This document shows positions 3,917 through 50,235 of a DNA stretch of 64,000 nt, in pieces (position 1 is the stretch's first letter; each line of letters begins with the position of its first letter). Source of the DNA: Flavivirga eckloniae (GTDB lineage: Bacteria > Bacteroidota > Bacteroidia > Flavobacteriales > Flavobacteriaceae). Location: contig NZ_CP025791.1 of NCBI RefSeq assembly GCF_002886045.1, forward strand, positions 4,417,001 to 4,481,000, given 5' to 3'. Position numbers and translations under genes: made by a program. The notes under the pieces are model-generated. The model did not search any database, was not told the DNA's origin, and saw only the letters and a list, made by a program, of their open reading frames with translations.

Positions 3917-6900
3917 ATGGACAAACACAAGTTACTACTAATATGGGCCATGTTAGTATGCATTACCGGATACACTCAAGAGGTTTTCTTGGGAAAGGTT
4001 ATGGACGAAAATAATGTACCACTACCAGGAGCAACTATTGTATTAAAAGGTAGCTCGCAAGGTGCCTCTACAGATTTCGATGGAAATTTCAAAATCGATG
4101 TACCTTCACTTAACGAAACTCTTATTATATCTTATGTAGGATATACTACCTTAGAATTTGCTATAAATGGGCAAAGTAGAGCAGACATTATATTACAGCC
4201 AGATTCAGAACAACTAAATGAAGTTGTAGTAACAGCACTGGGGATTAAAAGAGAGAAAAAATCGCTTGGTTATGCCTCTCAGGAATTAAATTCCGATGAA
4301 GTAGATGCCGGTAAGGAAAACAACCTACTAAATAACCTATCAGGTAAAGTTGCCGGTTTACAAATAACAAGTAGCCCTTCTGGACTTGGAGGTTCAGCCA
4401 GAGTGTCTATTAGAGGAGAAGCTTCTCTTAATATTAACGGTAACTCACCTTTATTTGTGGTAGATGGCACACCTATTAGCAATGAAATTGTGGGGTCGAC
4501 CGGAACAGGAACACAGGATGTAGATTATGGTAACGGGGCAGCAGAGATTAACCCAGAAAGTATAGAGTCTATTAACGTTCTTAAAGGACCAGCCGCAGCC
4601 GCACTTTATGGAGCAAGAGCAGCTAATGGTGCTATTATTATTACTACTAAAAAAGGATCGGGTAATGGTAGGCTTAGCGTTAGTATAAATTCTTCAGTAG
4701 GAATAGAAAATATCTTAATGCTTCCGGATTGGCAAAATGAATACGGACAAGGTAATAACAAACAATTTGAATTTGTTGATGGTAGTGGTAGTGGAATTGC
4801 AGATGGAGTAGACGAAAGTTGGGGGCCAAGATTAGATACAGGATTATTAATTCCTCAATTCGATTCACCAAGAGCAGATGGTACAAGAGGAGGAGATTAC
4901 TTGGTAAGTGATGCTCCCATTACTGCAACTCCATGGGTATCTAATCCAAATAATACTAAAGATTTTTTTAGAACAGGAACCATTTTAAGAAATAGTATTT
5001 CAATGTCTAAATCGGGGGATTTTGGGAATTACCGTATATCATATCAAAACTTGCAGCAAGAAGGAACTGTACCAAATACCGATTTAAAAAGAAACTCACT
5101 TAATTTTAATTCTGCTTTTAACCTAAACGATAAAATAACATTAAATACGAATATAAACTATGTAAAAACAGATAGTGATAACAGACCTTCTTTAAGTTAT
5201 GGTACAGAAAGTATTATGTATCTGTTTATCTGGTATGGGAGACAAGTTAACACACATAATTTGAGAGATTATTGGATGCCCGGTAGAGAAAATCTACAAC
5301 AATTCAACTATAATTATAATTACCACGATAATCCATATTTTAATGTTTACGAGAACACAAACTCTCAAGATAAAGATAGAATATATGGTAATGTAAGTTT
5401 AAGTTATAAACTTAATGATCATTGGAATGTGATGGTTCGTACCGGTCGTGATTTTTATCGTGATTTAAGGGCTAAAAAAAGAGCTTTTAGCACCCAACGT
5501 TTTCCATTAGGATTTTACCGTGAAGACAACGTGTTTTTTGAAGAAAGTAATTCCGATTTCTTAATAACCTATAATAATAAATTTAATGACATATGGGGCG
5601 TTACGGTTTCTGCGGGAGGTAACCAGTTTAGACAAAAGCAAGATTTCACACAAACTGTAGCACCGCAACTTATTAACCCTGGTGTATACTCTTTTAATAA
5701 CACAAGAAGACCTTTAGAAGTAACTACTAATGACAAAGAAAAAAGAATTAACAGTTTATATGGTTTTGCTCAATTCTCTTATGATGATAAACTATTCTTA
5801 GACATTACAGGTCGTAACGACTGGTCAAGTACATTACCCACAGATAATAATTCATATTTCTACCCTTCTGCAACTGTAAGTGCTATAGCAAGTGAGGTTT
5901 TTGAGATGCCGGATTTCGTAACTTTTGCAAAATTAAGATTAGCATATGCCGAAGTTGGTAACGATACAGATCCCTATAAATTAACAAGCTTTTTCGTAAA
6001 CGAAAGCCCTTTTGGAGATAATCCAGCGCTTACCGAATCGTCGTTAATTCCAAATGCTAATTTAAAACCAGAAAGAACAGCATCTTATGAGTTTGGTCTG
6101 GATTTACGTTTATTTAAAAGTAAGCTTAATCTTGATGTGACTTATTATAGTGGAGCTACTAAAAACCAGATTATACCTATTAGTACAGATGTTTCTAGCG
6201 GATATACAAGTAAACTCATCAATGCCGGTGAAGTTAAAAATTATGGATTTGAAGCCATTACCAATATCACGCCAATTAGAACAGATGACTTTTCATGGAG
6301 AACATCTTTTAACTTTTCAACAAACAAGAGTAAGGTAACAGATCTTGGAGGTGTAAATTATACTTTAACAGATAGAAACGGAGCATTTATTCAGGCAAGA
6401 GAAGGTGGTTCAATCAGTGCTATTTATGGTAGGGGCTTTCAAAGAGTTGACGATCCCGGTAGTGCGAACCATGGAAAAATTATTTATAACGCTCAGGGAA
6501 TTCCTCAAAGAACAGACGATTTAGTTTACCAAGGGGATTATGCTCCGGATTATACCTTAGGTTTTCAGAATATGTTTAAATATAAAAACTTCGACCTAAG
6601 CTTTTTAATAGATACCAGACAAGGAGGTATAGTTGTATCCAGAACAAAAACTATAGGAAGTACATCGGGACAATTAAAAGAAACACTTATTGGTAGGGAA
6701 AATGGTATTGTAGGCGACGGTGTTGTAGAAGTATCTCCGGGGGTATACCAACCAAATACTACAAATATCGATGCAAGAACATACAATAACCAATATTATA
6801 AAAGGGATAATGTTGAAGCTGCAAAATATGATGCATCCTATACAAAACTAAGAGAAGTTACTCTTGGCTATACATTTTCCAAAAATTTGGTTGAAAAATT

Positions 6901-7078
6901 AAAACTTACAAATGCGAGATTCTCTCTAACCGGAAGAAATTTATTGCTTTGGACTGATAATCCTCACTTCGATCCTGAAACGGTTGCTGTGTCTGGAGGA
7001 ACTCTACAGCCTGGTATAGAAAACATGGCATACCCTAGCTCAAGATCATTCACATTCAATTTAAAATTAGATTTCTAA
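3917..7078 (+). CDS. SusC/RagA-family TonB-dependent outer-membrane transporter (phosphonate locus)
   Basis: The 1,053-residue protein has a signal peptide (~1-20), a carboxypeptidase-regulatory-like domain (~23-103; GKVMDENNVPLPGATIVLKG, DFDGNF), the SusC signature LNEVVVTALGIKREKKSLGY (~100-119), a TonB plug (~120-245; LFVVDGTPI, GPAAAALYGARAANGAIIITTKKG) and a beta-barrel ending in Phe (FNLKLDF). It should import a ligand captured by the adjacent SusD protein, 11 bp downstream. SusC pairs usually import oligosaccharides or peptides. Here every downstream gene that can be read concerns phosphate esters or phosphonates, so a phosphorylated or phosphonylated ligand is inferred. A degenerate copy of the first codons lies at 18574. 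Confidence 0.93.
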   Translation: MDKHKLLLIWAMLVCITGYTQEVFLGKVMDENNVPLPGATIVLKGSSQGASTDFDGNFKIDVPSLNETLIISYVGYTTLEFAINGQSRADIILQPDSEQLNEVVVTALGIKREKKSLGYASQELNSDEVDAGKENNLLNNLSGKVAGLQITSSPSGLGGSARVSIRGEASLNINGNSPLFVVDGTPISNEIVGSTGTGTQDVDYGNGAAEINPESIESINVLKGPAAAALYGARAANGAIIITTKKGSGNGRLSVSINSSVGIENILMLPDWQNEYGQGNNKQFEFVDGSGSGIADGVDESWGPRLDTGLLIPQFDSPRADGTRGGDYLVSDAPITATPWVSNPNNTKDFFRTGTILRNSISMSKSGDFGNYRISYQNLQQEGTVPNTDLKRNSLNFNSAFNLNDKITLNTNINYVKTDSDNRPSLSYGTESIMYLFIWYGRQVNTHNLRDYWMPGRENLQQFNYNYNYHDNPYFNVYENTNSQDKDRIYGNVSLSYKLNDHWNVMVRTGRDFYRDLRAKKRAFSTQRFPLGFYREDNVFFEESNSDFLITYNNKFNDIWGVTVSAGGNQFRQKQDFTQTVAPQLINPGVYSFNNTRRPLEVTTNDKEKRINSLYGFAQFSYDDKLFLDITGRNDWSSTLPTDNNSYFYPSATVSAIASEVFEMPDFVTFAKLRLAYAEVGNDTDPYKLTSFFVNESPFGDNPALTESSLIPNANLKPERTASYEFGLDLRLFKSKLNLDVTYYSGATKNQIIPISTDVSSGYTSKLINAGEVKNYGFEAITNITPIRTDDFSWRTSFNFSTNKSKVTDLGGVNYTLTDRNGAFIQAREGGSISAIYGRGFQRVDDPGSANHGKIIYNAQGIPQRTDDLVYQGDYAPDYTLGFQNMFKYKNFDLSFLIDTRQGGIVVSRTKTIGSTSGQLKETLIGRENGIVGDGVVEVSPGVYQPNTTNIDARTYNNQYYKRDNVEAAKYDASYTKLREVTLGYTFSKNLVEKLKLTNARFSLTGRNLLLWTDNPHFDPETVAVSGGTLQPGIENMAYPSSRSFTFNLKLDF

Positions 7079-7089
7079 TACAAAGACTA

Positions 7090-8670
7090 ATGAAAACAAA
7101 ACAATTTATAAAAAGTTTAGCAGCCATGGCAATTATAGCTATTGCATTAATTAGCTGTGATAAAGACTTCGAAGAAATTAACAGTAATCCAAACTTTTCA
7201 GAAGAAGCAAATCCGGATTTGTTACTTCCAGGTGTTATACGTGAAATGGCACACAATTGGGGAAACCAAGGATGGGAAGAAGGTTTTACGGTAACGCAAT
7301 ACGCATCTCGTTTACAGTTTACTTCGGGTGACAGATATGATTGGTCACCTACAGGGAACCCTTATGACGATGCTTATAACTCTTTAAGAGATATTGAAAA
7401 CATTATACGAACAACAGCCGACAATCCTGCAACCCAAAATTATTATGGTGTTGCGCTGGTAATTAAATCTTGGATTTATTCATACTTAACAGATGCTTAT
7501 GGCAACGTGCCTTACACAGAAGCCATAAAAGGAATTAGCGATGATAATATCACTCCAAAATTCACCCCTCAAAGTGAGATATACGACGGGCTTTTAAAAG
7601 ATTTAAAACAGGCCAATACGGTTTTAACCGATGCTTCAAATATTTCAGGAGATATTCTTTACGGGGGAGATATTCTAAAATGGAGAAAATTTGCTAATTC
7701 TTTACGATTAAGGTTGGCTATGAGAATTAGCGATGTAAACAATTCCAGAGCGGTTTCCGAAATGAATGAAATTGTAAACAGTTCGGCAACTTACCCAATT
7801 TTTGAAAATAATGAAGACGCCGCAAATATGCAGTGGAATTCAGATAACCCACAACCCAAGTTTAATACACGTTCAGGAAGTTTTGACGAAGTAAGACTAA
7901 GTACAACGTTAGAAACACGTTTAAAGGATCTCAATGATATAAGACTGATTGTTTTTGCACAACCAACATCAAACTCTGGTCAGGGAATTTATTCTCCTAA
8001 CATGGATGATTATGTAGGTATGCCAAACGGTTTGGACGATGATTCGGCTTTAGGTTACAGCCCAACAGGAAATCCTGCAGAATCCGGTTCAAACTTCATC
8101 TCTCGATTGGGGGTTTTAATAACGTGTAGAGCATGCGATGTAGAAAATGCATCTCCAACAGCCTCGCAAACTATAATTATGAGTTATTCTGAACTTCAAT
8201 TTATTTTGGCAGAAGCCAGGGAACGTGGCCTTATTTCTGTCGGTGATGCTTCCGGTTATTATAACAAAGGTATTACCGCTTCTTTTGAATATTATACAGA
8301 AAGAATTATAGCAGGAGGGTGGAATGACATAGCTACCGCACTTCAAGCTTTTGATATTCCAGATTATATTGCGCAGTCATCAGTAGCATATACAGGAACT
8401 TCAGATCAAAAACTAGAGAAAATTGCACTTCAAAAATGGATCGCCCTTTACTATACTGGTTTTGAGGCCTGGTCTGACTGGAGACGTACTAATATGCCAG
8501 AGGTAATTCCCGGTCCAGATGCCGTAAATGAAGGGAAAGTACCAGTTCGTTTTCAATACCCAAATTCGGTAAAATCTACCAATAACGCTAACTATCTAGA
8601 AGCTGTTAAGAATATGGGTGCAGACGATCTTAATACTAGATTATGGTGGGATGTAGCAAGCAATAACTAA
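7090..8670 (+). CDS. SusD/RagB-like nutrient-binding lipoprotein (SusD_2 type)
   Basis: The 526-residue protein has a lipoprotein signal ending ALISC, with Cys23 as the lipidated residue. The mature start, DKDFEEINSNPNFSEEANPD, is the opening of the SusD_2 (PF12771) branch. Further family features are QYASRLQFT, YLTDAYGNVPYTEA (~136-149), WRKFANSLRLRLAMRIS (~198-214), SYSELQFILAEARERG (~364-379) and ALYYTGFEAWSDWRRT (~456-471). It forms the lid of the SusC channel and captures ligand at the cell surface. SusD_2 proteins often serve loci for non-canonical ligands, which agrees with the phosphonate context. The next gene begins 9 bp after its stop, so susC, susD and the hydrolase form one operon. 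Confidence 0.92.
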   Translation: MKTKQFIKSLAAMAIIAIALISCDKDFEEINSNPNFSEEANPDLLLPGVIREMAHNWGNQGWEEGFTVTQYASRLQFTSGDRYDWSPTGNPYDDAYNSLRDIENIIRTTADNPATQNYYGVALVIKSWIYSYLTDAYGNVPYTEAIKGISDDNITPKFTPQSEIYDGLLKDLKQANTVLTDASNISGDILYGGDILKWRKFANSLRLRLAMRISDVNNSRAVSEMNEIVNSSATYPIFENNEDAANMQWNSDNPQPKFNTRSGSFDEVRLSTTLETRLKDLNDIRLIVFAQPTSNSGQGIYSPNMDDYVGMPNGLDDDSALGYSPTGNPAESGSNFISRLGVLITCRACDVENASPTASQTIIMSYSELQFILAEARERGLISVGDASGYYNKGITASFEYYTERIIAGGWNDIATALQAFDIPDYIAQSSVAYTGTSDQKLEKIALQKWIALYYTGFEAWSDWRRTNMPEVIPGPDAVNEGKVPVRFQYPNSVKSTNNANYLEAVKNMGADDLNTRLWWDVASNN

Positions 8671-8679
8671 AATTTGTCA

Positions 8680-10332
8680 ATGAATTATTTTAAATATCTA
8701 ATCATGACCATAGGCTTTTTTAGTCTATGGTCATGTTCAACAAAAAAAACATCAAAAGAAACTCAAAAAGCCAAACACGTTGTTGTAATAGGTTTTGATG
8801 GATTAAGTCCGGACGGATTAAAACATGCAAACACCCCAACGTTCGATAAATTGATGCAGGAAGGCGCTTATTCTTTACAGGCAAGAGCTGTATTACCAAC
8901 AAGTTCCAGTACCAATTGGGCATCAATGATAATGGGTGTCGGACCCGAACAGCATGGCATCACATCCAATAGTTGGGATAAACACAATTTGGTTCTACCA
9001 ACAGTTGCACAAAGCGAAGACTTCTTTTTTCCAAGCATATTTCATTTGATCGATACACAAATCGAAAACGCAGAAATAGGGGTGATTTACCACTGGAAAG
9101 AATTCGGAAGACTTTTTGAAAAAAATACAGTAGACTATGATGTTAATTCAAAAACAGAAGACGAAACCGCTGCGTTGGCTTCGGAATACATAAAAACGAA
9201 AAATCCAACCTTCACATTTGTACATTTTGACCATATAGACCATGCAGGTCACGAGTATGGTCATGGAACAGATCATTATTACGAGTCTGTAGAAAAAGCA
9301 GATTCATTATTGGCTGTTTTAATTAATACTATTAAGACTTCAGATATTGCTAATGAAACTATGGTTATTGTTAGTTCAGACCATGGCGGATTGGGTAAAG
9401 GTCATGGCGGGGAATCGTTGCAGGAGGTAGAAATACCTTTTATTATTTGGGGTAAATCGGTAAAAAAAGATTATAAAATAACCGCTCCGGTTTATCAATA
9501 CGATAACGCAGCAACAGTGGCTCACATCTTGAATCTTAAAAAACCGTTTGCTTGGATCGGGAGACCCGTAAAGCATGCTTTTGAAGGTTTTAATGAAACG
9601 GTAAAATACCCTGTAACCGAACGTTTGGAACCACCTGTAATTTTACCAAAAAGCGAAGGTTATAAAAAAGCAGGAGGACTATTCAATAATGAAGTTACCG
9701 TTACCATCGAAAACCTCAATACTGTTACCGGCGACATTTTCTATACAACAGACGGTTCTCTGCCAACCAAAGCTTCAAAAAAATATAACACCCCTTTTTC
9801 TATCAAAGAAAACACAGTACTTAAAAGTGCCTTCTACATTAATGGTAAAATAAGCAGCGTGGTAAGCGAGGCATTTTTTAGAATTAAAGATGAAGATTAC
9901 AAAGCACCTATTCATTACGACATATTTTATTCTGGTAATGACCTTGCAAACATTCCTTCTATACGAAATAAAAAACCAGATGTTAGTGGAAGCTGTTTTG
10001 AGATGACTTCAGAAGAAATAAAAGAAAAAGTAAAGAAACATTCCACAGTACGTTTTACAACAAATATTACAATTACAGAAGAAGGCAAATACACCTTTTA
10101 TACGAGATCGGATGATGGTAGTAAGCTATGGATAAATGATGATGAGGTGGTTAATAATGATGGCGACCATGGTGTAAAGGAAAGAAAAGGAAGTGTTCAT
10201 TTAAAACCAGGAGTTTACCCCTTAACCCTTACGTGGTTCAATGGCGAAGGCGGGTTTTGGTTAGATACTTATTACAAAAGCAACACCATTAATAAGCAAA
10301 TGATACCAACAACCATTTTAAGCTCAAATTAA
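8680..10332 (+). CDS. Surface alkaline-phosphatase-superfamily phosphodiesterase with PA14 domain
   Basis: I chose ATG 8680 over the in-frame TTG at 8674 because it opens directly into a lipoprotein signal (MNYFKYLIMTIGFFSLWSC), giving 550 residues. Residues ~30-310 form a type I phosphodiesterase/nucleotide pyrophosphatase domain: VVVIGFDGLSPDG (metal Asp), PTSSSTNWASM (Ser/Thr nucleophile region), HFDHIDHAGHEYG and SSDHGGLGKGHGG (metal ligands). Then comes a chitobiase-C-like beta domain (~325-400, FYTTDGSLPTKAS) and a PA14 domain (~415-545, FYTRSDDGSKLWINDDEV), which usually binds glycans. It probably cleaves phosphate or phosphonate esters at the cell surface before or during SusCD uptake. 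Sequence cannot separate a phosphodiesterase from a phosphonate monoesterase. Confidence 0.85.
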   Translation: MNYFKYLIMTIGFFSLWSCSTKKTSKETQKAKHVVVIGFDGLSPDGLKHANTPTFDKLMQEGAYSLQARAVLPTSSSTNWASMIMGVGPEQHGITSNSWDKHNLVLPTVAQSEDFFFPSIFHLIDTQIENAEIGVIYHWKEFGRLFEKNTVDYDVNSKTEDETAALASEYIKTKNPTFTFVHFDHIDHAGHEYGHGTDHYYESVEKADSLLAVLINTIKTSDIANETMVIVSSDHGGLGKGHGGESLQEVEIPFIIWGKSVKKDYKITAPVYQYDNAATVAHILNLKKPFAWIGRPVKHAFEGFNETVKYPVTERLEPPVILPKSEGYKKAGGLFNNEVTVTIENLNTVTGDIFYTTDGSLPTKASKKYNTPFSIKENTVLKSAFYINGKISSVVSEAFFRIKDEDYKAPIHYDIFYSGNDLANIPSIRNKKPDVSGSCFEMTSEEIKEKVKKHSTVRFTTNITITEEGKYTFYTRSDDGSKLWINDDEVVNNDGDHGVKERKGSVHLKPGVYPLTLTWFNGEGGFWLDTYYKSNTINKQMIPTTILSSN

Positions 10333-10388
10333 ATGGATCACCAAAAAAATATTATTTCAGTTTTTTTCTACTTTTTTGTTGAATTAGT

Positions 10389-10435
10389 CCTTTTCTCCAA
10401 GGAGGGTTCAGTTGAATCCTCCTATGGGGAGAAGG
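10389..10435. repeat. Imperfect 47-bp palindrome inside the phosphonate operon
   Basis: CCTTTTCTCCAAGGAGG... is mirrored by ...CCTCCTATGGGGAGAAGG around a GT centre near 10411. It sits in the 139-bp gap between the surface hydrolase and the PLP enzyme, the only large gap in an otherwise tight operon. It could be a mobile REP-like palindrome or an attenuator that lowers expression of the distal genes. There is no T-run directly after it, so a simple intrinsic terminator is less likely. Confidence 0.55.
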
Positions 10436-10471
10436 TATTTTTAAAATGTATCGAAACCTCTTATAAGTAGT

Positions 10472-11851
10472 ATGATGAAACCGGAAAACCATAACAGAAA
10501 AACAGAAGGCGATATAAACCAAACATTGGCAAGAAACACATGGATGGAAACCCAAGTAGACGAAAATACCAAATCATTTTTAGAGGAAGATGCGCGCTAT
10601 TTTTTGCATCAATCCATGTCTACACCATGTCTGGATGTTATAAAGAAAAGTAACCAATCAAGTTTCTTCAATTTACAAGGAAAGCCGTATTTGGACTTTC
10701 ATGGTAATAATGTGCATCAAGTTGGATATAATCAAGAAGAACTTATTGAAAATTTAATAAAACAGTTACATAAACTGCCTTTTTCACCACGTAGATACAC
10801 CAATAAACCAGCCATAAAATTTGCAAAAAAGTTAGCGTCATTAACGCCCTCAGATTTAAACAGGGTATTATTAACGCCCAACGGTAGCTCTGCCGTGGGC
10901 ATCGCTTTAAAATTAGCAAGAGCCGTAACCGGAAAATTTAAAGTTGTTTCCTTTTGGGATTCTTTTCACGGCGCGTCATTGGATGCTATTAGTGTTGGAG
11001 GAGAAGCAGTTTTTAGAGATTCTATGGGGCCATTAATGCCCGGAGTGGAGCGCATTCCCCCACCAGTAACGTATCGCGGTATTTTTGAAGACAATGAAGA
11101 TAAATGTCTGGAATATCTAGAATATGTGTTTAAAAAAGAAGGAGACATTGGAGCCTTTATTGCCGAAACCGTTAGAAATACCGATGTACAAACTCCTTCG
11201 AAGTCATTTTGGCAAAAAGCAAGGGCGCTTTGCAACACCCATAATGTACTGCTTATACTTGATGAAATTCCTATAGCATTGGGTAGAACAGGGTATATGT
11301 TTGCTTTCGAGCATTATGGTATCGAACCCGATATTTTATGCCTAGGAAAAGGTTTAGGCGGCGGCATTTTTCCACAAGCGGCCATCGTAACCCGGGATAA
11401 GTTTAACATTTGTCAGGAGATATCCCTTGGGCATTATACCCATGAAAAAAGTCCATTAGGGTCTGTTTGCGGATTAACCACTATAGATATTATTGAAAAA
11501 GAACAATTACTTAAAAAAGTAAGACGGGATGAGCTTTACATGCGCTCATCATTAGAAGCTTTAAAGATCAAATACCCATTAATTGGAGACATAAGAGGCA
11601 TGGGATTATTATGGGGCATTGAATTGGTAACTAGTAAAGATACCAAAGAAAAGGCCGTAGATGAGGCCGAACGTATTATGTACGAATGTCTGGCAGAAGG
11701 GTTGAGTTTTAAAGTGTCCGCAGGAAACGTTCTGCAATTATCACCACCACTTACCATTTCAAGAGAAGATTTAGATAAGGCACTAAATATTTTAGATAGA
11801 GCACTTTTAAAAATAAGTGATCAAATTAATAATCATCAAACTATTGTTTAA
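10472..11851 (+). CDS. pbfA: Class III PLP-dependent enzyme, PbfA-like (1-hydroxy-2-aminoethylphosphonate ammonia-lyase candidate)
   Basis: The 459-residue protein has the class III aminotransferase fold. It shows the cofactor-binding GSSAVGIALKLARAVTG (~133-149), LILDEIPIALGRTG (~263-276, with the PLP-pyridine Asp) and LGKGLGGGIFP with the Schiff-base lysine at K293. The N-terminus carries RYFLHQSMSTPCLDVI and YLDFHGNNVHQVGY, a pattern I associate with a subgroup linked to phosphonate clusters. PbfA eliminates ammonia from (R)-1-hydroxy-2-aminoethylphosphonate to give phosphonoacetaldehyde, the substrate of the phosphonatase encoded downstream. Class V PhnW is absent here. A class III transaminase for 2-aminoethylphosphonate remains possible. 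The stop is 2 bp before the next ATG. A relic of its 3' end lies at 18659. Confidence 0.7.
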   Translation: MMKPENHNRKTEGDINQTLARNTWMETQVDENTKSFLEEDARYFLHQSMSTPCLDVIKKSNQSSFFNLQGKPYLDFHGNNVHQVGYNQEELIENLIKQLHKLPFSPRRYTNKPAIKFAKKLASLTPSDLNRVLLTPNGSSAVGIALKLARAVTGKFKVVSFWDSFHGASLDAISVGGEAVFRDSMGPLMPGVERIPPPVTYRGIFEDNEDKCLEYLEYVFKKEGDIGAFIAETVRNTDVQTPSKSFWQKARALCNTHNVLLILDEIPIALGRTGYMFAFEHYGIEPDILCLGKGLGGGIFPQAAIVTRDKFNICQEISLGHYTHEKSPLGSVCGLTTIDIIEKEQLLKKVRRDELYMRSSLEALKIKYPLIGDIRGMGLLWGIELVTSKDTKEKAVDEAERIMYECLAEGLSFKVSAGNVLQLSPPLTISREDLDKALNILDRALLKISDQINNHQTIV

Positions 11852-11853
11852 AC

Positions 11854-13452
11854 ATGAAGCAACATATTAATATAACAGTATTGGCAATTTTAATAACCTG
11901 TTCGGTTTTTGCTCAAAAGAATAGCTTTTTGGTACAGCCTTATTTACAGGATGCCACACCAAATTCGATTAAAATAATGTGGGAAACGGCATTGGGAGAA
12001 GAAAGCATTGTAGAATGGGGAAGTACAAAGAAACTTGGAAAAAAAACCACAGGTACTGCTAACGATATCAATTTTGGTAAATCCAGAATTCATGAAGTTA
12101 AAATTCAAGGCCTTAAACGTTTTACAAACTACTATTACAGAGTAAAAACCGGTCGTTTAGTTTCTGATATTTTCCAGTTTAAAACCCCACCTTTTGCTAA
12201 TGATGAGGGATCATTTAATATTTTGGCGATGAGCGATATGCAACACGATTTCAATCATCCCGATAAATTCTCAGAAATCGTAAATGACGGTGTACTTTCA
12301 TATTTGAAACATGAATTTAAAGGAGACGTACCCAATAATTTGGCATTGGTTATGATTCCTGGTGATTTGGTGAAAGATGGCGATGAATACGATCAATGGA
12401 AAAACTATTTCTTTAATCCTGCCGAAAAGCTATTTGCCGAAGTTCCTGTATATCCGGTACTCGGGAATCATGAAAAAAATTCCACCTTCTACTTTAAATA
12501 TTTCAGTCTGCCGGAAAACGGAACACCTGCTTATGCCGAGCATTGGTGGTACAAAGACTATGGGAACACCCGAATAATAGGGTTAAACTCTAACAAAGGG
12601 TTTAGAGATATTAAAACACAGTTAGAATGGTTGGAAAAGCTGTTGAAGGATACTGAAAATAATGATGACATAGATTTTGTTTTTGCACAGCTGCATCACC
12701 CGCATAAATCTGAACTTTGGATTCCCGGAGAAATAGATTTTACAGGAGAAGTTATTAAAGTTCTGGAAGCATTTACAACAGGTTCAGGAAAGCCTAGTTT
12801 ACATTTTTTTGGACATACACACGGATATTCCCGCGGACAATCTAAAGACCATAAGCACCTATGGATTAATGTAGCTTCGGCAGGAGGTGCTATTGACAAT
12901 TGGGGCGAGTTTAAAGGAAAGGATTATGATGAGTTTACAGTTACCCAAGATGAATATGGCTTTGTAATGGTTGAGGTAGAAAACAATAACAATGATCCTA
13001 AGTTTACCATTAAGCGTATAAGCCGAGGTAACGAAAGTAAGTTAAGGAACAATGAACTTAGAGATAGTATTACTATTTATAAAAAACCTCGAAAACCTCT
13101 TTCGCCAAAGGCCATAGCTCCTCATGATGAAAATATAGCTGTTACAGACATTATTTTAAAAGCAAGTCCATTTAAAAGTGAACACAGTAAAGCATTTCAT
13201 GCCGCGTCCCATTGGCAAGTGTCTAAAAGCAAAGAATTTGAGGATTTGATTTTAGATAGTTGGAAACAGAGCGAGAATTGGTATTATATGGAAAACCGTC
13301 AGAAACACGATGATCTTACAGATGAAAAAATAACACGCTTAGAACCTGGTACCACTTATTATTGGAGAGTGCGGTATCGCGATCAGAACCTAAATTGGGG
13401 CGATTGGTCTAATACTTTGAACTTTAAAACACAACAAAACTTATCTAAATAA
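11854..13452 (+). CDS. Secreted purple-acid-phosphatase-like metallophosphoesterase with two Fn3-type domains
   Basis: The 532-residue protein has a signal peptide (~1-20), an N-terminal purple-acid-phosphatase Fn3 domain (~24-112; QPYLQDATPNSIKIMWET, HEVKIQGLKRFTNYYYRV), a calcineurin-like catalytic domain (~120-390) and a C-terminal Fn3-like domain (~440-530, TTYYWRVRYRDQNLNW). Metal-binding motifs are MSDMQ, PGDLVKDGDE, GNHE (Asn205), LHHPH and GHTH, as in dimetal phosphoesterases with DxQ at the first site. It should hydrolyse phosphomonoesters or diesters outside the cytoplasm. Its paralogue at 18771 is about as long and clearly homologous, but differs at the GNHE motif. Confidence 0.87.
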   Translation: MKQHINITVLAILITCSVFAQKNSFLVQPYLQDATPNSIKIMWETALGEESIVEWGSTKKLGKKTTGTANDINFGKSRIHEVKIQGLKRFTNYYYRVKTGRLVSDIFQFKTPPFANDEGSFNILAMSDMQHDFNHPDKFSEIVNDGVLSYLKHEFKGDVPNNLALVMIPGDLVKDGDEYDQWKNYFFNPAEKLFAEVPVYPVLGNHEKNSTFYFKYFSLPENGTPAYAEHWWYKDYGNTRIIGLNSNKGFRDIKTQLEWLEKLLKDTENNDDIDFVFAQLHHPHKSELWIPGEIDFTGEVIKVLEAFTTGSGKPSLHFFGHTHGYSRGQSKDHKHLWINVASAGGAIDNWGEFKGKDYDEFTVTQDEYGFVMVEVENNNNDPKFTIKRISRGNESKLRNNELRDSITIYKKPRKPLSPKAIAPHDENIAVTDIILKASPFKSEHSKAFHAASHWQVSKSKEFEDLILDSWKQSENWYYMENRQKHDDLTDEKITRLEPGTTYYWRVRYRDQNLNWGDWSNTLNFKTQQNLSK

Positions 13453-13473
13453 GCAGTAAGATTCTAAAAAAGT

Positions 13474-14382
13474 ATGAGTTTAACAAGAAGACATTTTTTA
13501 AAAACAGCGGGCATTTTTACCATATCAACTATGGTAATACCTCTAGAAGGCTGTTTTGGTGCTATAAATTCTAAAATAAGAATTGGATTGGTTACCGATT
13601 CTCATTACGCAGACCGGGAACCGAATAACACACGGTATTACAGACAATCTATAGAAAAAATGGATGAATTTATCACGCTCATGAATCTGGAAAAAGTAGA
13701 TTTTGTTATGCATATGGGAGATTTTAAAGATGAGGATGCAAACAAAAATAAGATAGATACTTTGAAATATTTGCAGGCTATAGAAGCATCATATTCAAAA
13801 TTTAAGGGACCAAAATACCATTGTGTTGGCAACCATGATGTAGATAGTATAACTAAAGAGGAATTTCTTAACAATATCGATAACACAGGTATACCTAAAC
13901 ATAAAAGCTATTATTCATTTAATCAATCGGGGTTTCATATCGTGGTTTTAGATGCCAATTTTGATAAACAAGGGAACAACCATTTTTTTAAAGAAGGAGC
14001 CGATTGGCAGGATACTAATATTCCAAAGATTCAATTAGATTGGTTAAAACAGGATTTAGCAACCAACGATCTTCCTGTTATCGTGTTCTGCCACCATCCG
14101 TTGTTCGAATATTTTAGAGCAGGCAAAAAATACCACATTAATAATTATAGTGAAGTTCAATTGATTTTAAAGAATTCAGCTAAAGTCGTTGGCGTATTTC
14201 AAGGTCATGTGCACGAAGAGAAGTATAAAGAACACAAAGGCATGCATTTTATCACACAATTAGGTATGGTAGATTATAGTGGGTTAGAGAACAATAGTTT
14301 TTCAATTGTAGAAATAGATGAGAATAGCATTGTTATTAATGGTTTTAAAAGAGCAAACAATTATAATTTCCCTGTTCAATGA
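13474..14382 (+). CDS. Tat-exported metallophosphoesterase
   Basis: The 302-residue protein begins with a twin-arginine signal (SLTRRHFLKTAGIF). A possible lipobox follows (PLEGC, Cys27), so it may be a Tat-exported lipoprotein. Calcineurin-like motifs appear in order: TDSHYADRE (~40-48), MGDFKD (~80), GNHDVD (~113-118), CHHPLFE (~208) and GHVHEEKY (~246-253). The set is complete, so activity is expected. The substrate is unknown; the layout is closer to ADPRibase-Mn/CpdA-like phosphodiesterases than to purple acid phosphatases. Its last four bases overlap the next gene (ATGA), indicating translational coupling to the transporter, so the product of this enzyme may be what the transporter carries. 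Confidence 0.85.
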   Translation: MSLTRRHFLKTAGIFTISTMVIPLEGCFGAINSKIRIGLVTDSHYADREPNNTRYYRQSIEKMDEFITLMNLEKVDFVMHMGDFKDEDANKNKIDTLKYLQAIEASYSKFKGPKYHCVGNHDVDSITKEEFLNNIDNTGIPKHKSYYSFNQSGFHIVVLDANFDKQGNNHFFKEGADWQDTNIPKIQLDWLKQDLATNDLPVIVFCHHPLFEYFRAGKKYHINNYSEVQLILKNSAKVVGVFQGHVHEEKYKEHKGMHFITQLGMVDYSGLENNSFSIVEIDENSIVINGFKRANNYNFPVQ

Positions 14383-15662
14383 AGTTTAAGTTAGCAGTCC
14401 ATACCAGGTTTATAATACAGGCTTCCATTGCCGCTTTCGGAGCCTATTTTTGTATGTACGCTTTTAGAAAGCCTTTTACTGTGGCAACTTTTGAAGGACA
14501 AAGCTTTTTTGGAATTGATTATAAAATTCTATTGATAATTGCACAGGTAATAGGGTATACACTGTCTAAGTTTTTGGGGATAAAAATAATCTCCGAAATG
14601 AAATCCAATAAACGTATGCTGTATTTAATTGGGTTTATAATGTTCGCAGAATTAGCACTGTTAGGTTTTGCCATAATTTCTGCCCCGTTCAATATGGTGT
14701 GTTTATTTTTAAATGGTTTACCTCTGGGGATGATTTGGGGGATTGTGTTTTCGTATTTAGAAGGTAGAAAAACAACCGAAATTTTAGGCGTTGTACTCTG
14801 TTCCAGTTTTATTGTTTCGTCTGGTGTAGTAAAATCGGTTGGGAAATATGTTATGGATTCACTAGGTTTTTCGGAGTTATGGATGCCATTTATTACTGGT
14901 TTACTGTTTATTATTCCGTTGACTTTTTTCACGATACTTTTAGAAAAACTACCGCCACCAACTCTAACCGATCAAAAAAGCAGAACACATAGAAAACCAT
15001 TAAATAAAGCAGAGCGCTTTCAGCTTTATAAAGTATTCGCTTTCCCATTAACATTAATTATTGTGTTTTATGTATTTGTAACTGGAGTACGCGATTTTAG
15101 AGATAATTTTGCCCGAGAAATATGGGATACTTTGGGGTACAAGGATAGCATAGGAATTTATGCTTTTTCAGAAATACCTATAGCCATAACCGTATTGCTA
15201 ATTATGGCTTTTATTGGGTCTGTTAAAAATAATTACAAAGCTTTTAAATACTATCATATTGTTTTGTTGTTAGGGGGCTTGGTAATTGGGCTGTCTACTA
15301 CAGCATTACAATTACAAGTAATTAACCCTGTGGTTTGGATGATTCTTTCCGGTTTTGGCATGTACGTTTGCTACATCCCCTTTCAGGGCTTATTCTTCGA
15401 TAGAATGATAGCGACCTTTAAAATAGAAAGCAATGTTGGCTTTTTAATTTATATAGCAGATGCTTTTGGTTATCTGGGTAGTGTGCTCATCCTGCTTTAT
15501 AAAAACTTTGGAAAAGGGAGTATATCTTATTTGTCATTTTTCACCTATATGGTTTATGTCGTAGCATTTATAGCTATAGGGTTGGCGGTTTTATCATATA
15601 CTTTTTTCAAAAATAAATATCGAAATAAATTAAAAATAAACACACTTATTTATGAACAATAA
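14379..15662 (+). CDS. DUF5690-type MFS-like inner-membrane transporter
   Basis: The 427-residue hydrophobic protein has about 12 predicted membrane helices. It opens with IIQASIAAFGAYFCMYAFRK, which fits the DUF5690 family of Bacteroidota and resembles helix 1 of organophosphate:phosphate antiporters (GlpT/UhpT type). Charged residues within the membrane region include RKPF near residue 31 and TGVRDFRDNFARE near 230-242, candidates for anion binding. It overlaps the upstream phosphoesterase by 4 bp and the downstream oxidoreductase by 11 bp. The inferred role is import of a phosphonate or phosphorylated compound released in the periplasm. The family name is from memory; the transport function rests on context. 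Confidence 0.7.
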   Translation: MKFKLAVHTRFIIQASIAAFGAYFCMYAFRKPFTVATFEGQSFFGIDYKILLIIAQVIGYTLSKFLGIKIISEMKSNKRMLYLIGFIMFAELALLGFAIISAPFNMVCLFLNGLPLGMIWGIVFSYLEGRKTTEILGVVLCSSFIVSSGVVKSVGKYVMDSLGFSELWMPFITGLLFIIPLTFFTILLEKLPPPTLTDQKSRTHRKPLNKAERFQLYKVFAFPLTLIIVFYVFVTGVRDFRDNFAREIWDTLGYKDSIGIYAFSEIPIAITVLLIMAFIGSVKNNYKAFKYYHIVLLLGGLVIGLSTTALQLQVINPVVWMILSGFGMYVCYIPFQGLFFDRMIATFKIESNVGFLIYIADAFGYLGSVLILLYKNFGKGSISYLSFFTYMVYVVAFIAIGLAVLSYTFFKNKYRNKLKINTLIYEQ

Positions 15663-16812
15663 AACCTACGACCTAATAATTGTTGGAGGGGGTGTTTTAG
15701 GAACATTTCATGCATATCATGCGCTTGCAAAAGGTTACAGTGTACTAATGTTGGAAAAAAATAATGCGCCCTTGGGTGCTACTGTTCGTAATTTTGGACA
15801 GGTAGTTCCTTCTGGGATGAACTTAAAATGGCAGAGTTATGGCTGTGAAAGCTTAGCGATTTATAAATCCATTCAACAAAGGTTCGACATTAGTATTAGA
15901 CAAAATGGAACGGTATATATAGCTTCAAATGAAGAAGAAGCACAATTACTGGAAGAACTGTATCAAATTAATGAGGCCAATAATTACGAATCTTATTTAT
16001 TAACCAAGGAACAGTGTTTAAAGAAATATAAAGGATTAAAGGAAAGTTATTGCAACTCAGGATTGTTTTTTCCTCAAGAAGTAACCGTAGAGCCTAGAGT
16101 AATGATAGGCAAGTTGCATAAGTTTATGAAGGCCCATTATGAGTTAAATTATTTACCCAATACCACTGTAATAAACACACATGAAGTTAATGGTGCCGTG
16201 GAGGTGGTTTCTTCGGAAGGCACCGTCTATAAAGCTTCCAAAGTAATTATTTGTAGCGGAAGTGATTTTAAAACGCTTTATCCAATGGTTTATAATAATA
16301 GCGATTTACAGGTTTCGAAATTACAAATGTTACAAACCAAATCCCAAGGAAATTATGAATTGAATGGTTCTGTTTTAACGGGTTTAACCATTCGTCGTTA
16401 TGAGTCATTTACACAGTGTCCGTCTTACGAAGAGATAAAATCTAAAGAAGATCTGAATAGTTTCGAGAAGCAATTTGGAGTGCATATTCTTTTTAAGCAA
16501 GCCACAGATGGCTCTGTAATTATTGGAGATTCACATGAATATGCAGATGCTAAGGATATTGATAATCTTGGTTTTGATCTAAATATGGATATTGATGATT
16601 TTATGATAAAAGAGGCTAAAAAAATCATCAACTTGCCAAGTTACGAGATTCAAAATCGTTGGGCAGGGTTTTATTCACAATGTAAAACGAAAGACATTTT
16701 TGAGTGCCAGATAGGCGATAATGTACATATAGTTACAGGTATTGGCGGAAAGGGTATGACAGGAAGTGCAGGGTTTTCCAAAGATAGTATTAACAGAATA
16801 ATGAATATTTAA
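15652..16812 (+). CDS. FAD-dependent oxidoreductase, TIGR03364-like (phosphonate-associated)
   Basis: The 386-residue DAO-fold flavoprotein has an N-terminal dinucleotide-binding motif IIVGGGVLGTFHAYHAL (~8-24), an acidic strand end MLEKNNAPLGAT (~33-44), NFGQVVPSGMN (~48-58) and a C-terminal FAD motif VTGIGGKGMTGSAG (~363-376). This fits the oxidoreductase clade TIGR03364, which is known to sit next to phosphonatase-like hydrolases. Here the phosphonatase-like gene starts 14 bp downstream. The probable reaction is oxidative deamination of 2-aminoethylphosphonate or its N-methyl form to phosphonoacetaldehyde, which would explain the absence of a PhnW transaminase. It is cytoplasmic, with no signal peptide. 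Confidence 0.78.
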   Translation: MNNKTYDLIIVGGGVLGTFHAYHALAKGYSVLMLEKNNAPLGATVRNFGQVVPSGMNLKWQSYGCESLAIYKSIQQRFDISIRQNGTVYIASNEEEAQLLEELYQINEANNYESYLLTKEQCLKKYKGLKESYCNSGLFFPQEVTVEPRVMIGKLHKFMKAHYELNYLPNTTVINTHEVNGAVEVVSSEGTVYKASKVIICSGSDFKTLYPMVYNNSDLQVSKLQMLQTKSQGNYELNGSVLTGLTIRRYESFTQCPSYEEIKSKEDLNSFEKQFGVHILFKQATDGSVIIGDSHEYADAKDIDNLGFDLNMDIDDFMIKEAKKIINLPSYEIQNRWAGFYSQCKTKDIFECQIGDNVHIVTGIGGKGMTGSAGFSKDSINRIMNI

Positions 16813-16826
16813 AATTATAGAGATAT

Positions 16827-17504
16827 ATGACAAACATAAAAATGGTAGTTTTTGATATGGCAGGAACTACAATTAATGAACACAATGTAGTATACAAAAC
16901 ATTATACACAGTAATTAATGAATCCGGACTTCCTGTATCGTTAGAAAAGGTTTTAGAACTGGGAGCAGGTAAGGAAAAATTTCAGGCCATAAAAGATATT
17001 ATTAATGAAATAGATCCGGCTACAAGTATTAATCCTGAAATGATATTCGGAAACTTTAAAAATATGCTCGATGAAGCCTATTCTATTTTGGCAGTTACAC
17101 CAATAGATGGTGTTGATGCGACTATGTTAGAGTTAAAAGAAAAGGGCATTAAAGTCGTTTTAAATACGGGTTATAGTGAAACTGTTGCAAATACACTTTT
17201 ACATAAACTGAATTGGGAAAAAGATGTGCATTACGATTTACTGGTAACCGCAGATGATGTAGAAAAAGGGCGCCCACATCCGGATATGATTTTAAAAGCG
17301 ATGGATGCATTACACGTTTTTGACCCAAAGACAGTGTTAAAAGCTGGAGATTCTGCAGTTGATATTGAAGAAGGAAAAAATGCTAATTGTGGTATTACAG
17401 TTGGTGTGCTTTCTGGAGCACAGACTAAAGAACAATTGAAGTCGGCAGAACCAACCTACATTATAGAATCATTAGCCACTCTAAACCAAATAATGGATTA
17501 CTAA
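16827..17504 (+). CDS. Phosphonatase-like HAD hydrolase (TIGR03351-like, PhnX homologue)
   Basis: The 225-residue HAD-superfamily protein carries the phosphonatase-type first motif FDMAGTT (nucleophile Asp10, with Ala in place of the second Asp). Thr117 or nearby in VVLNTGYS is motif II, KGRPHPDM (~149-156) has Arg where most HADs use Lys, and AGDSAVDIEEGKNA (~174-187) is the C-terminal acidic motif. These are the marks separating PhnX and its TIGR03351 relatives from other HADs. The cap has Lys residues in GAGKEKFQAIK (~48-58) that could form the Schiff base with the aldehyde. It should cleave phosphonoacetaldehyde or a close analogue to an aldehyde and phosphate. It is the last gene of the operon, followed by a hairpin terminator. 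Confidence 0.82.
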   Translation: MTNIKMVVFDMAGTTINEHNVVYKTLYTVINESGLPVSLEKVLELGAGKEKFQAIKDIINEIDPATSINPEMIFGNFKNMLDEAYSILAVTPIDGVDATMLELKEKGIKVVLNTGYSETVANTLLHKLNWEKDVHYDLLVTADDVEKGRPHPDMILKAMDALHVFDPKTVLKAGDSAVDIEEGKNANCGITVGVLSGAQTKEQLKSAEPTYIIESLATLNQIMDY

Positions 17505-17510
17505 TTTTAT

Positions 17511-17543
17511 AAAAGCCTGATCATAATTTTGATTGGGCTTTTT
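17511..17543. terminator. Bidirectional intrinsic terminator
   Basis: AAAAGCC (17511-17517) pairs with GGCTTTT (17536-17542) and is followed by T. It sits between the convergent phosphonatase-like gene and the XRE-cupin gene and overlaps the regulator's stop codon, so it can end transcripts from both sides. Confidence 0.7.
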
Positions 17544-18117
17544 AACCATTTTCCGAATAGAAGTATAAAACAAGCATGGTGCAGTCTTCGGTTCCTCTGT
17601 TTACTGGTACATGAGGCAACCTTCCATTAAAGTATATGGAATCTCCCTCATTAATAGTCACTTCTTCATTATCAATAATGTAAGAACAGCTTCCTTTCAA
17701 TATATATTTAAACTCCCAGGCATCAGTAATTACTTTTTCGCGATACGAGTTTGGAGAAACAGTTAAAATAACAGCTTCGAATCCTACCGTATTTAAACTT
17801 TTACCAAAAATCTGAAAGTATTTGAATCCTTTGGCCTCAACCTCTTTTTCTAAAGTTTGCTGCTCTTCTTTTTTTACCAAGATGAATTTTGCTCCTGCTT
17901 TGCTTTCAACCCCTTCAAAAAAATTACTGGCATCAATATTCAATGCGCTTATAAGTTCTAGTAAAACTGGTAGAGACGGAATTGTACGGCCATTTTCTAT
18001 TCTTGAAATAAGCCCATTACTAACACCTGCATCTTTAGCTAAAGAACTAATGGTTATATTTTGTTTTTTGCGAATTGATTTTATGCGTTTTCCAATACCA
18101 ATTAAAAAGTCATCCAT
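17542..18117 (-). CDS. XRE-family regulator with C-terminal cupin domain
   Basis: The 191-residue protein has an N-terminal helix-turn-helix (~8-62; RIKSIRKKQNITISSLAKDA, VSNGLISRIENGRTIPSLP) and a C-terminal cupin_2 barrel (~112-188; FKYILKGSCSYIIDNEEV, INEGDSIYFNGRLPHVPVNR). This fold usually represses or activates a neighbouring catabolic operon and senses a small metabolite in the cupin. It lies convergent with the phosphonate operon and divergent from the duplicated promoter remnant, so it is the obvious candidate regulator of both copies. The gap 18118-18381 in front of it holds another TTAGGA-type box near 18261. Confidence 0.88.
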   Translation of the reverse strand: MDDFLIGIGKRIKSIRKKQNITISSLAKDAGVSNGLISRIENGRTIPSLPVLLELISALNIDASNFFEGVESKAGAKFILVKKEEQQTLEKEVEAKGFKYFQIFGKSLNTVGFEAVILTVSPNSYREKVITDAWEFKYILKGSCSYIIDNEEVTINEGDSIYFNGRLPHVPVNRGTEDCTMLVLYFYSENG

Positions 18118-18770: not shown

Positions 18771-20351
18771 ATGAAACACTACAAAACAATTCTATTATCA
18801 ATTTTAATAGCCTCGGGGCTATCTGCTCAAACTAATACTTTATTGGTACAACCTTACTTGCAAGATGCTACTCCTAACTCCATTAAAGTGATGTGGGAAA
18901 CGAAATCTGGAGAAGAAAGCATTGTAGAGTGGGGGAAATCGAAAAAGCTAGGGAAAGTTACCTCAGGTCATGCATCCCATGTAGATTTAGGGAATTCAAA
19001 AATTCATGAAGTAAAAATTGAAGGCCTTAAACGGTTTACAAATTATTACTACAGAGTAAAATCCGACGCAATTGTTTCAGATATTTTTCAATTTAAAACA
19101 CCACCATTAGCAAAAGATAAGGAGTCGTTTAATATTATAGTAATGAGTGATATGCAGCAAGATTCCAATCATTCGAATGTGTTTTCTGAAACAGTAGACC
19201 AAGGTATACTAACATACCTTAAAAAAGAGTTTAAAGAAGACTTACCAAACAACTTAGCTATGGTTCTGGTTCCTGGAGACCTAGTAGAACATGGTAATGA
19301 ACATAGCCAATGGCAAGGCCATTTTTTTAATCCGGGAAGAAAATTGTTTTCTAAAGTCCCTGTTTACCCCGTATTAGGAAGCCATGAAAAAAGTTCAGGT
19401 TCTTATTTTGAGTATTTCAGTTTACCCGAAAACGGTACGCCAGAATATGCAGCACACTGGTGGTATAAAGATTATAGCAATGTTAGGATTATTGGTTTAG
19501 ACTCAAACGAGGCGTTTGGAAATATTGATGCACAATTAAAATGGCTGAAAAAAATATTGAAAGATACAGCTAGCAATGAAAACATAGATTTTGTCTTTGC
19601 TCAATGGCATCACCCTTATAAATCTGAGCTTCGAATTTCGGGAGAAACAGATGTTGCAGGAAAAGCTATTAAAGCTTTAGAAGCATTCACTACGAGCTCT
19701 GGAAAACCGAGTTTACATTTTTTTGGTCATACACATGGTTATTCACGTGGACAATCCAGAGATTCCAAACACTTGTGGATTAATGTGGCATCTGCAGGAG
19801 GAGCAATCGATAACTGGAATGAGTCTGACGGAAAGGATTATGATGAGTTTACGGTAACTCATGATGAATACGGGTTTTTAATGGTAGAGGTTGTAAATGA
19901 AAATAATGACCCAAAATTTACGATTAAACGCATCAGCCGAGGTAATAAAAACAAGATTAGGTATAATGAGCTTAGAGATAGTATAACGATTTATAAAAAA
20001 GCACGTAAACCAGAAACTCCTATGGTGATGTTTCCAAACAATGGAACCGTACCCAATGTTGGTGTAGTTTTAAATGCAGGTCCGTTTAAAAGCAAACATA
20101 AGAAAGCCTTTCATGCAGCATCCCACTGGCAAGTGTCCAAATATGAAGACTTTAAAAAGGTTGTAATGGATGTTTGGAAGCAAAATGAAAACTGGTACAA
20201 TAATGAGAATCTTCAAAAGGATTATGTGCTTACAAAAGAAAGATTAGAACCTTTGGAGTCTTTTACAACGTATTATTGGAGGGTGCGTTACCGAGATCAG
20301 AACTTAAACTGGAGTGACTGGTCGGATGTATTAAGTTTTAAAACGAATTAA
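18771..20351 (+). CDS. Purple-acid-phosphatase-like metallophosphoesterase, divergent paralogue
   Basis: The 526-residue protein has the same layout as the gene at 11854: signal peptide (~1-19), N-terminal Fn3 domain (QPYLQDATPNSIKVMWET), calcineurin-like domain and C-terminal Fn3-like domain. Long stretches are identical. Motifs are MSDMQ, PGDLVEHGNE, WHHPY and GHTH, but the third motif reads GSHE, with Ser204 where the paralogue has the metal-coordinating Asn. Activity may be lowered, or the enzyme may have changed specificity. It follows the susC/pbfA deletion scar by 3-60 bp and ends before a perfect palindrome. It is the only intact gene of the duplicated segment. Confidence 0.87.
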   Translation: MKHYKTILLSILIASGLSAQTNTLLVQPYLQDATPNSIKVMWETKSGEESIVEWGKSKKLGKVTSGHASHVDLGNSKIHEVKIEGLKRFTNYYYRVKSDAIVSDIFQFKTPPLAKDKESFNIIVMSDMQQDSNHSNVFSETVDQGILTYLKKEFKEDLPNNLAMVLVPGDLVEHGNEHSQWQGHFFNPGRKLFSKVPVYPVLGSHEKSSGSYFEYFSLPENGTPEYAAHWWYKDYSNVRIIGLDSNEAFGNIDAQLKWLKKILKDTASNENIDFVFAQWHHPYKSELRISGETDVAGKAIKALEAFTTSSGKPSLHFFGHTHGYSRGQSRDSKHLWINVASAGGAIDNWNESDGKDYDEFTVTHDEYGFLMVEVVNENNDPKFTIKRISRGNKNKIRYNELRDSITIYKKARKPETPMVMFPNNGTVPNVGVVLNAGPFKSKHKKAFHAASHWQVSKYEDFKKVVMDVWKQNENWYNNENLQKDYVLTKERLEPLESFTTYYWRVRYRDQNLNWSDWSDVLSFKTN

Positions 20352-50182: not shown

Positions 50183-50235
50183 AATGAGAGAGTTTTTATG
50201 CTTTTTTAAAGTTTTATGGATTAATTATAAAACGT

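Follow-up and report, generated by a model that had tools for sequence, protein, structure and literature searches.

A probable SusCD-linked aminophosphonate utilization locus in Flavivirga eckloniae and its relatives across Bacteroidota

Known systems and the gene run in Flavivirga eckloniae

Six low-phosphate PusCD complexes, co-localized with phosphomonoesterases (PMEs), phosphodiesterases (PDEs) and 'phosphonate-degrading enzymes', have been reported in plant-associated strains that lack the common transporters for organic phosphorus (PMC8115612). Separately, two enzyme routes to phosphonoacetaldehyde are known: PbfA converts (R)-1-hydroxy-2-aminoethylphosphonate (R-HAEP) (PMC12366243), and the oxidases PbfD1, which is annotated as TIGR03364, and PbfD2 act on N-methyl-AEP and on 2-aminoethylphosphonate (AEP) itself (PMC10590968). 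AEP and its relatives occur in lipids and glycans, and HAEP is cited as the head group of a bacterial sphingophosphonolipid (PMC4642753). Here we describe a run of genes at positions 3917 to 17504 of a 64,000-nucleotide stretch of the Flavivirga eckloniae genome (the window; NZ_CP025791.1, positions 4,417,001 to 4,481,000), in which a SusC–SusD (SusCD) pair, a type of outer-membrane importer that Bacteroidota usually employ for sugars, stands together with phosphoesterases, a DUF5690 protein and phosphonate enzymes.

Our analysis makes it likely that this run is an aminophosphonate utilization locus, extending from the SusCD importer to a haloacid dehalogenase (HAD) hydrolase. At the level of sequence, the case is carried by gene content, family membership, conserved catalytic residues and recurrence in other genomes. 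The genome is complete, in a single contig of 5.67 Mb. In the window's list of open reading frames (ORFs), nine ORFs lie in one direction between 3917 and 17504, spaced by −11 to +21 bp except that PbfA starts 139 bp after the phosphodiesterase gene. Their order is SusC, SusD, a phosphodiesterase resembling nucleotide pyrophosphatase/phosphodiesterases (NPPs), PbfA, two metallophosphoesterases, DUF5690, the TIGR03364 flavoenzyme and the TIGR03351 HAD. A preliminary description of this DNA had presented the same co-directional cluster, and we found all nine ORFs at the place and on the strand it gave, with matching family assignments. The genes and two neighbors are as follows.

3917..7078, plus strand: SusC-type TonB-dependent outer-membrane transporter (TIGR04056, 670.8 bits, cut-off 368.25; TIGR04057 signature)
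7090..8670, plus strand: SusD-like lipoprotein, SusD-like_2 (PF12771, 325.2 bits; clusters in a tree with the SusDs of other such loci)
8680..10332, plus strand: probable lipoprotein phosphodiesterase, NPP-like, alkaline phosphatase (AP) superfamily (PF01663, 105.7 bits; PF07691, 63.3 bits)
10472..11851, plus strand: PbfA (NF049939, 717.8 bits, cut-off 525)
11854..13452, plus strand: purple-acid-phosphatase-like metallophosphoesterase, N-terminus resembling a signal peptide by eye (PF16656, Pur_ac_phosph_N; PF00149, Metallophos)
13474..14382, plus strand: calcineurin-like phosphoesterase, N-terminus with twin-arginine and lipobox-like features by eye (PF00149, 53.1 bits)
14379..15662, plus strand: DUF5690 protein, proposed inner-membrane aminophosphonate transporter with an OPA-like (organophosphate:phosphate antiporter-like) major facilitator superfamily (MFS) fold (PF18943, 551.1 bits)
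15652..16812, plus strand: FAD amine oxidase, PbfD1 family (TIGR03364, 401.1 bits, cut-off 285.1)
16827..17504, plus strand: phosphonatase-like HAD hydrolase (TIGR03351, 223.8 bits, cut-off 218.9)
17542..18117, minus strand: XRE-cupin transcriptional regulator, convergent with the run (PF01381, PF07883)
18771..20351, plus strand: second purple-acid-phosphatase-like metallophosphoesterase, probable further member (BLASTP, 359/524)

The last of these is a paralogue, 69% identical in BLASTP, of the metallophosphoesterase at 11854..13452, and both it and the XRE-cupin gene probably belong to the locus. The phosphodiesterase ORF was listed from a TTG at 8674; the in-frame ATG at 8680 is the likelier start.

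Phosphonate enzymes and phosphoesterases

Profile searches placed PbfA far above its curated cut-off and the flavoenzyme clearly above that of TIGR03364. The HAD protein passes TIGR03351 and falls below the cut-off for PhnX (TIGR01422; 110.2 vs 220 bits). In all 113 aligned HADs from such loci, the Asp nucleophile, the Gly and Thr of the DxAGT motif, the cap-domain Lys, the motif-3 Arg and two motif-4 Asp residues are invariant, among them D10 and K51 of the window protein. K51 aligns with the cap-domain Lys of the MG..K motif in four aligned proteins that pass TIGR01422 (328–348 vs 220 bits); such a Lys is named as catalytic in phosphonatase (PMC12632274). The PhnX lysine had been sought at K49, from a phmmer comparison with Bacillus cereus PhnX and a first family alignment, until a wider alignment with true PhnX proteins moved the assignment to K51; K49 is conserved in only 67 of the 113. 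An inactive phosphonatase homologue like PcrP/PA2803 was also rejected, since PcrP is missing residues that are retained in the window HAD (PMC12632274). A genome-wide profile search found neither PhnW above its cut-off nor PhnJ, and PF12974 gave a single weak match; the locus is thus the only recognizable phosphonate route among the families searched. Collectively, the enzymes fit a hydrolytic degradation of AEP relatives, and the phosphonate catabolism proposed in the preliminary description agrees with the profile matches and the retained catalytic residues.

Three phosphoesterases of the run appear, from their N-termini, to act outside the cytoplasm. The phosphodiesterase combines PF01663 with CHB_HEX_C/Fn3_assoc and PA14 (PF07691) domains, and its residues D42, D189, H193, D236 and H237, invariant in 26 aligned sequences, are candidate metal ligands by analogy with NPP enzymes. 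Its predicted structure (pLDDT 82.3, with parts of the catalytic domain low) gave NPP1, NPP3 and Xac NPP as the best Foldseek matches. Acidic residues after the lipoprotein cysteine are read as a signal for surface export. By eye, the N-terminus of the phosphodiesterase is lipoprotein-like (LWSC), but the residues after its cysteine are not acidic, unlike those of the window SusD (CDKDFEE); the earlier placement of this hydrolase at the cell surface is therefore not upheld.

Other esterases occur in some related loci, namely a metallophosphoesterase–PQQ protein (L026) and a phospholipase C (PF04185 with PLipase_C_C) that adjoins the genes of L108; weaker PF04185 matches (33–57 bits) were found in L100, L101, L112, L247 and L261. 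The phospholipase C and these weak matches would lean toward a lipid as the conjugate partner of the phosphonate, and the PA14 and CHB_HEX_C domains of the window phosphodiesterase toward a glycan.

Recurrence of the locus, the SusD lineage and DUF5690

Of 299 genomes in the family, 22 (that of the window included) encode a TIGR03351 protein over cut-off; of 395 in the phylum, 29 have a match with E ≤ 1e-40, and only 10 of these are over cut-off. Neighborhoods were taken from 21 family relatives and 26 further phylum genomes (without G000, G001 and G176, which are counted in the family set). A SusCD pair was scored when an ORF of a SusC/TonB receptor of at least 600 residues adjoined a SusD-type ORF within 10 kb of the HAD gene, and 20 coordinates chosen by hand, in 20 of these genomes, served as random regions. 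Gene labels came from profile models built on these loci, which can miss distant or unusual genes. By this rule, SusCD pairs lie beside the HAD gene in 17/21 family and 12/26 phylum loci, or 30/48 with the window, compared to 1/20 random regions (one-sided Fisher test on 29/47 vs 1/20, 9e-6, with shared ancestry not corrected for). The co-location of SusCD with TIGR03351 genes, on which the preliminary description had staked its reading, is thus borne out. DUF5690 lies within the same distance in 21/21 family and 21/26 phylum loci (0/20 random), a modelled type of phosphoesterase in 19/21 and 10/26 (0/20 random), and an XRE gene of the window type in 20/21 and 14/26.

Gene order varies among these loci. 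Runs like that of the window occur in L044, L212 and L214. In Zobellia, Flagellimonas and Galbibacter, among others, DUF5690, the FAD-dependent oxidase and the HAD are followed by an XRE gene on the opposite strand and then by SusC, SusD and a phosphodiesterase; several loci of this order also hold PbfA and further phosphoesterases. In other families (L103, L104, L106), HAD, DUF5690 and oxidase genes stand next to SusC, SusD and an AP-superfamily gene. In two loci (L036, L060), a short SusD match lies near XRE, PbfA and purple acid phosphatase genes with no SusC, and the importer has apparently decayed while the enzymes remain. A protein with an HxHxDH motif, called a metallo-beta-lactamase by eye, matched no family from Pfam or NCBIfam.

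The SusD proteins were compared in a tree of 93 SusD-like_2 sequences (60 from such loci, 33 others) built by a quick method. Sequences were of the SusD-like_2 type by their own model, with RagB-type proteins excluded, had a minimum length of 400–420 residues and were unique (109 reduced to 93); four of the 60 come from Chitinophaga loci with DUF5690 and no phosphonate enzyme. Only 3 label changes were needed, compared to 27.3 in shuffles, and the deep forks uniting the group are weak (SH-aLRT 54 and 83). These data bear on one alternative, that a polysaccharide-type SusCD pair came to lie beside an unrelated phosphonate cluster. Such pairs are common in these genomes, the window's own having 20 PF12771 matches, 9 of them over cut-off, but the excess over random regions and the clustering of the SusD tree make chance neighborhood very improbable. 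In the same genome, none of the 19 other SusD regions (partly overlapping, as L270/L271 and L282/L285) holds a modelled phosphonate gene. We conclude that the pairing probably reflects a genuine means of living on natural phosphonates.

The esterases bear on whether the imported substrate is a conjugate or a free phosphonate. Since the cytoplasmic enzymes all act on small molecules, and a single TonB receptor replaces SusCD in the loci from Chryseobacterium, Flavobacterium and Tenacibaculum, free aminophosphonates could be the sole substrate, with SusCD and the esterases merely aiding uptake. We regard this as improbable: free AEP is small enough to pass through porins, and of the 29 loci besides the window that have a SusCD pair, 23 contain a modelled phosphoesterase, which is our main reason for proposing an esterified substrate. 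On the same grounds, the import of a phosphonolipid or phosphonoglycan conjugate, with its ester cleaved ahead of inner-membrane uptake, may be right as the preliminary description suggested.

DUF5690 is a family of unknown function in Pfam. It occurs in 42 of the 395 phylum genomes, 28 from the 29 that have a TIGR03351-type HAD and 14 from the 366 others. Among the best 80 of 590 confirmed stretches from a DUF5690 alignment search, 69 are flanked by a phosphonate gene, 37 by a SusCD pair and 22 by a TonB-type receptor only. Of 20 further DUF5690 loci, 10 have a phosphonate gene, including PhnW in seven loci and phosphonoacetaldehyde dehydrogenase in two. The modelled structure (pLDDT 89.9) has an MFS fold; its first four Foldseek matches are the glucose-6-phosphate transporter (G6PT), and GlpT (1pw4) is matched with a TM-score of 0.71. 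Because the known AEP permease AepP is related to GlpT (PMC8316502), our best guess from the model and this analogy is that DUF5690 is an inner-membrane aminophosphonate transporter. The OPA model TIGR00881 is matched by 4 of the 80 members (best 8.8e-8), the window protein not among them; its matches in L264 and L265, considered as organophosphate transporters, did not look so by eye. DUF5690 relatives outside Bacteroidota were seen in Rhodanobacter (L256, L263), where they lie near a phospholipase-C-like protein, in Novosphingobium (L254) and in Planctomycetota (L258).

Several results weigh against the reading of the run as an aminophosphonate utilization locus. The HAD protein passes TIGR03351 by only about 5 bits, the model itself is a 'hypothetical equivalog', and 19 of the 26 phylum loci rest on the E ≤ 1e-40 threshold alone. 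There is no SusCD pair by our rule in 18 of the 48 loci; among these, L091 and L105 have a SusC truncated where the fetched stretch or contig ends, and seven others carry a TonB-type receptor alone. PbfA is found within 10 kb of the HAD gene in 13/21 family loci and only 2/26 phylum loci. Ten of the 20 further DUF5690 loci have no phosphonate gene by the models used, and four Chitinophaga loci (L246, L248, L249, L262) consist of a minimal SusC–SusD–DUF5690 run with no phosphonate enzymes. As for the transporter, the Foldseek scores of other MFS proteins are not far from those of the OPA ones, hhalign of DUF5690 with two MFS proteins found nothing, and a PDB sequence search with DUF5690 gave no match. 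Finally, one outsider within the SusD group (L309) is flanked by SusC and an AP-superfamily enzyme, with no phosphonate gene in 16 kb (L316). This context ties the SusD lineage to phosphoester hydrolases at least partly independently of phosphonate genes, and the importer may serve phosphoesters at large.

That outsider also favors a broader alternative, general organophosphate scavenging as in the PUS of Lidbury et al., in which the substrates of SusCD and the esterases would be phosphodiesters, for example glycerophosphoethanolamine or nucleotides, and only regulation would link these genes to the phosphonate enzymes. In Flavobacterium johnsoniae, PUSI and PUSII pair SusCD with a PDE and PME (PMC8115612), and the window phosphodiesterase is closest in sequence and model to the NPPs. 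Against this, phosphonate genes stay with SusCD in many lineages despite varied gene order and content, and PbfA sits between phosphoesterase genes in the same run, in the window and in several relatives. We consider scavenging of this kind unlikely, though the most credible of the alternatives.

In the minimal Chitinophaga runs the genes for the outer- and inner-membrane transporters adjoin, and an XRE gene precedes them in L248, L249 and L262.

Proposed pathway and comparison with described systems

Taking the aminophosphonate reading, we infer the substrate, each reaction and transport step, and the order of events in F. eckloniae as follows. The substrate to cross the outer membrane through SusC–SusD would be AEP, N-methyl-AEP or R-HAEP in ester linkage to a lipid or glycan. 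In the periplasm, the small phosphonate would be freed by the NPP-like lipoprotein together with the metallophosphoesterases, and DUF5690 would move it across the inner membrane. PbfA would then convert R-HAEP, and the TIGR03364 oxidase N-methyl-AEP or AEP, to phosphonoacetaldehyde, which the HAD would split into phosphate and acetaldehyde. The XRE-cupin protein is the probable substrate sensor. That Bacteroidota possess a dedicated, phylum-wide phosphonate-ester system, in which this specialized SusD lineage imports AEP-type conjugates, extracytoplasmic phosphoesterases unload them and DUF5690 takes aminophosphonate through the inner membrane, is a wider proposal to which we give even weight for and against; it takes in some SusCD pairs now called glycan importers, which would, if it is true, belong to this system. 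The locus offers candidate genes for phosphonate uptake across both membranes in Bacteroidota and a function for DUF5690.

Profile scans found no carbohydrate-active enzymes (CAZymes) in 3917–17504, so the run lacks the combination of SusCD and CAZyme that defines a polysaccharide utilization locus (PUL). The earlier remark that no glycoside hydrolase is present holds for the run itself; it fails beyond it, where GH43, fucosidase and porphyranase-type genes and sulfatases lie on the other strand from 20473. The ten ORFs scanned there on the minus strand (20473–44155) carry sulfatase, GH43, fucosidase, beta-porphyranase and GH3 domains, with CAZymes from 21999, which suggests a porphyran/agar-type PUL and a host that degrades red algae. 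Two large, adjoining FG-GAP/UnbV_ASPIC repeat proteins are encoded on the minus strand at 46880–54270. A search with a Bacteroidota-type promoter pattern found nothing upstream of SusC and no more sites than in shuffled sequence; a sigma-70 scan was uninformative.

Among described systems, the closest are the PusCD/PUS clusters of plant-associated Flavobacterium (PMC8115612), which likewise join SusCD to phosphodiesterases and phosphatases and not to CAZymes; the run has the makeup of a PUS, with SusCD co-directional with a PDE and PME and no CAZyme between them. PUS are induced by low phosphate, and the nearest regulator in the window is the XRE-cupin protein; the available part of that paper names no specific phosphonate enzyme or pathway. 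With the PbfA and PbfD–PhnX pathways (PMC10590968, PMC12366243) the locus shares PbfA, a TIGR03364 oxidase and a phosphonatase-like HAD, and with the PbfD2–PhnX route the lack of PhnW over cut-off. It differs from these and from PhnWX in its HAD, which is of TIGR03351 and not TIGR01422, and in uptake, for which they use an ABC transporter and the window has SusCD and DUF5690. AepP (PMC8316502) resembles DUF5690 as a single-protein MFS transporter of the GlpT kind beside phosphonate catabolic genes, although most DUF5690 members are not recognizable as OPA proteins by sequence.

In Maribacter forsetii, the SusC/D pair P177_RS04595/04600 was assigned to laminarin from its expression, and its neighbors are given as an alkaline phosphatase, an FAD-dependent oxidoreductase and a 'phosphonatase-like hydrolase' (PMC11345257). 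Compared by description only, these are the neighbors found in our Maribacter loci L228 and L232. The authors' assignment is unlike our phosphonate reading and deserves re-examination; SusCD expression alone is not proof of polysaccharide use. In L228 and L232, a second, RagB-type SusCD pair lies just upstream of DUF5690.

Among the matches listed, by title and abstract opening, no paper describes the window locus as such and none uses the DUF5690 name. The preliminary description knew of no SusCD–phosphonate system; since PusCD clusters co-localized with phosphonate-degrading enzymes are reported in PMC8115612, the kind of system was already known and the novelty is moderate. What the present locus adds to that system is a defined module, its spread across the phylum, the SusD lineage and the proposal for DUF5690.

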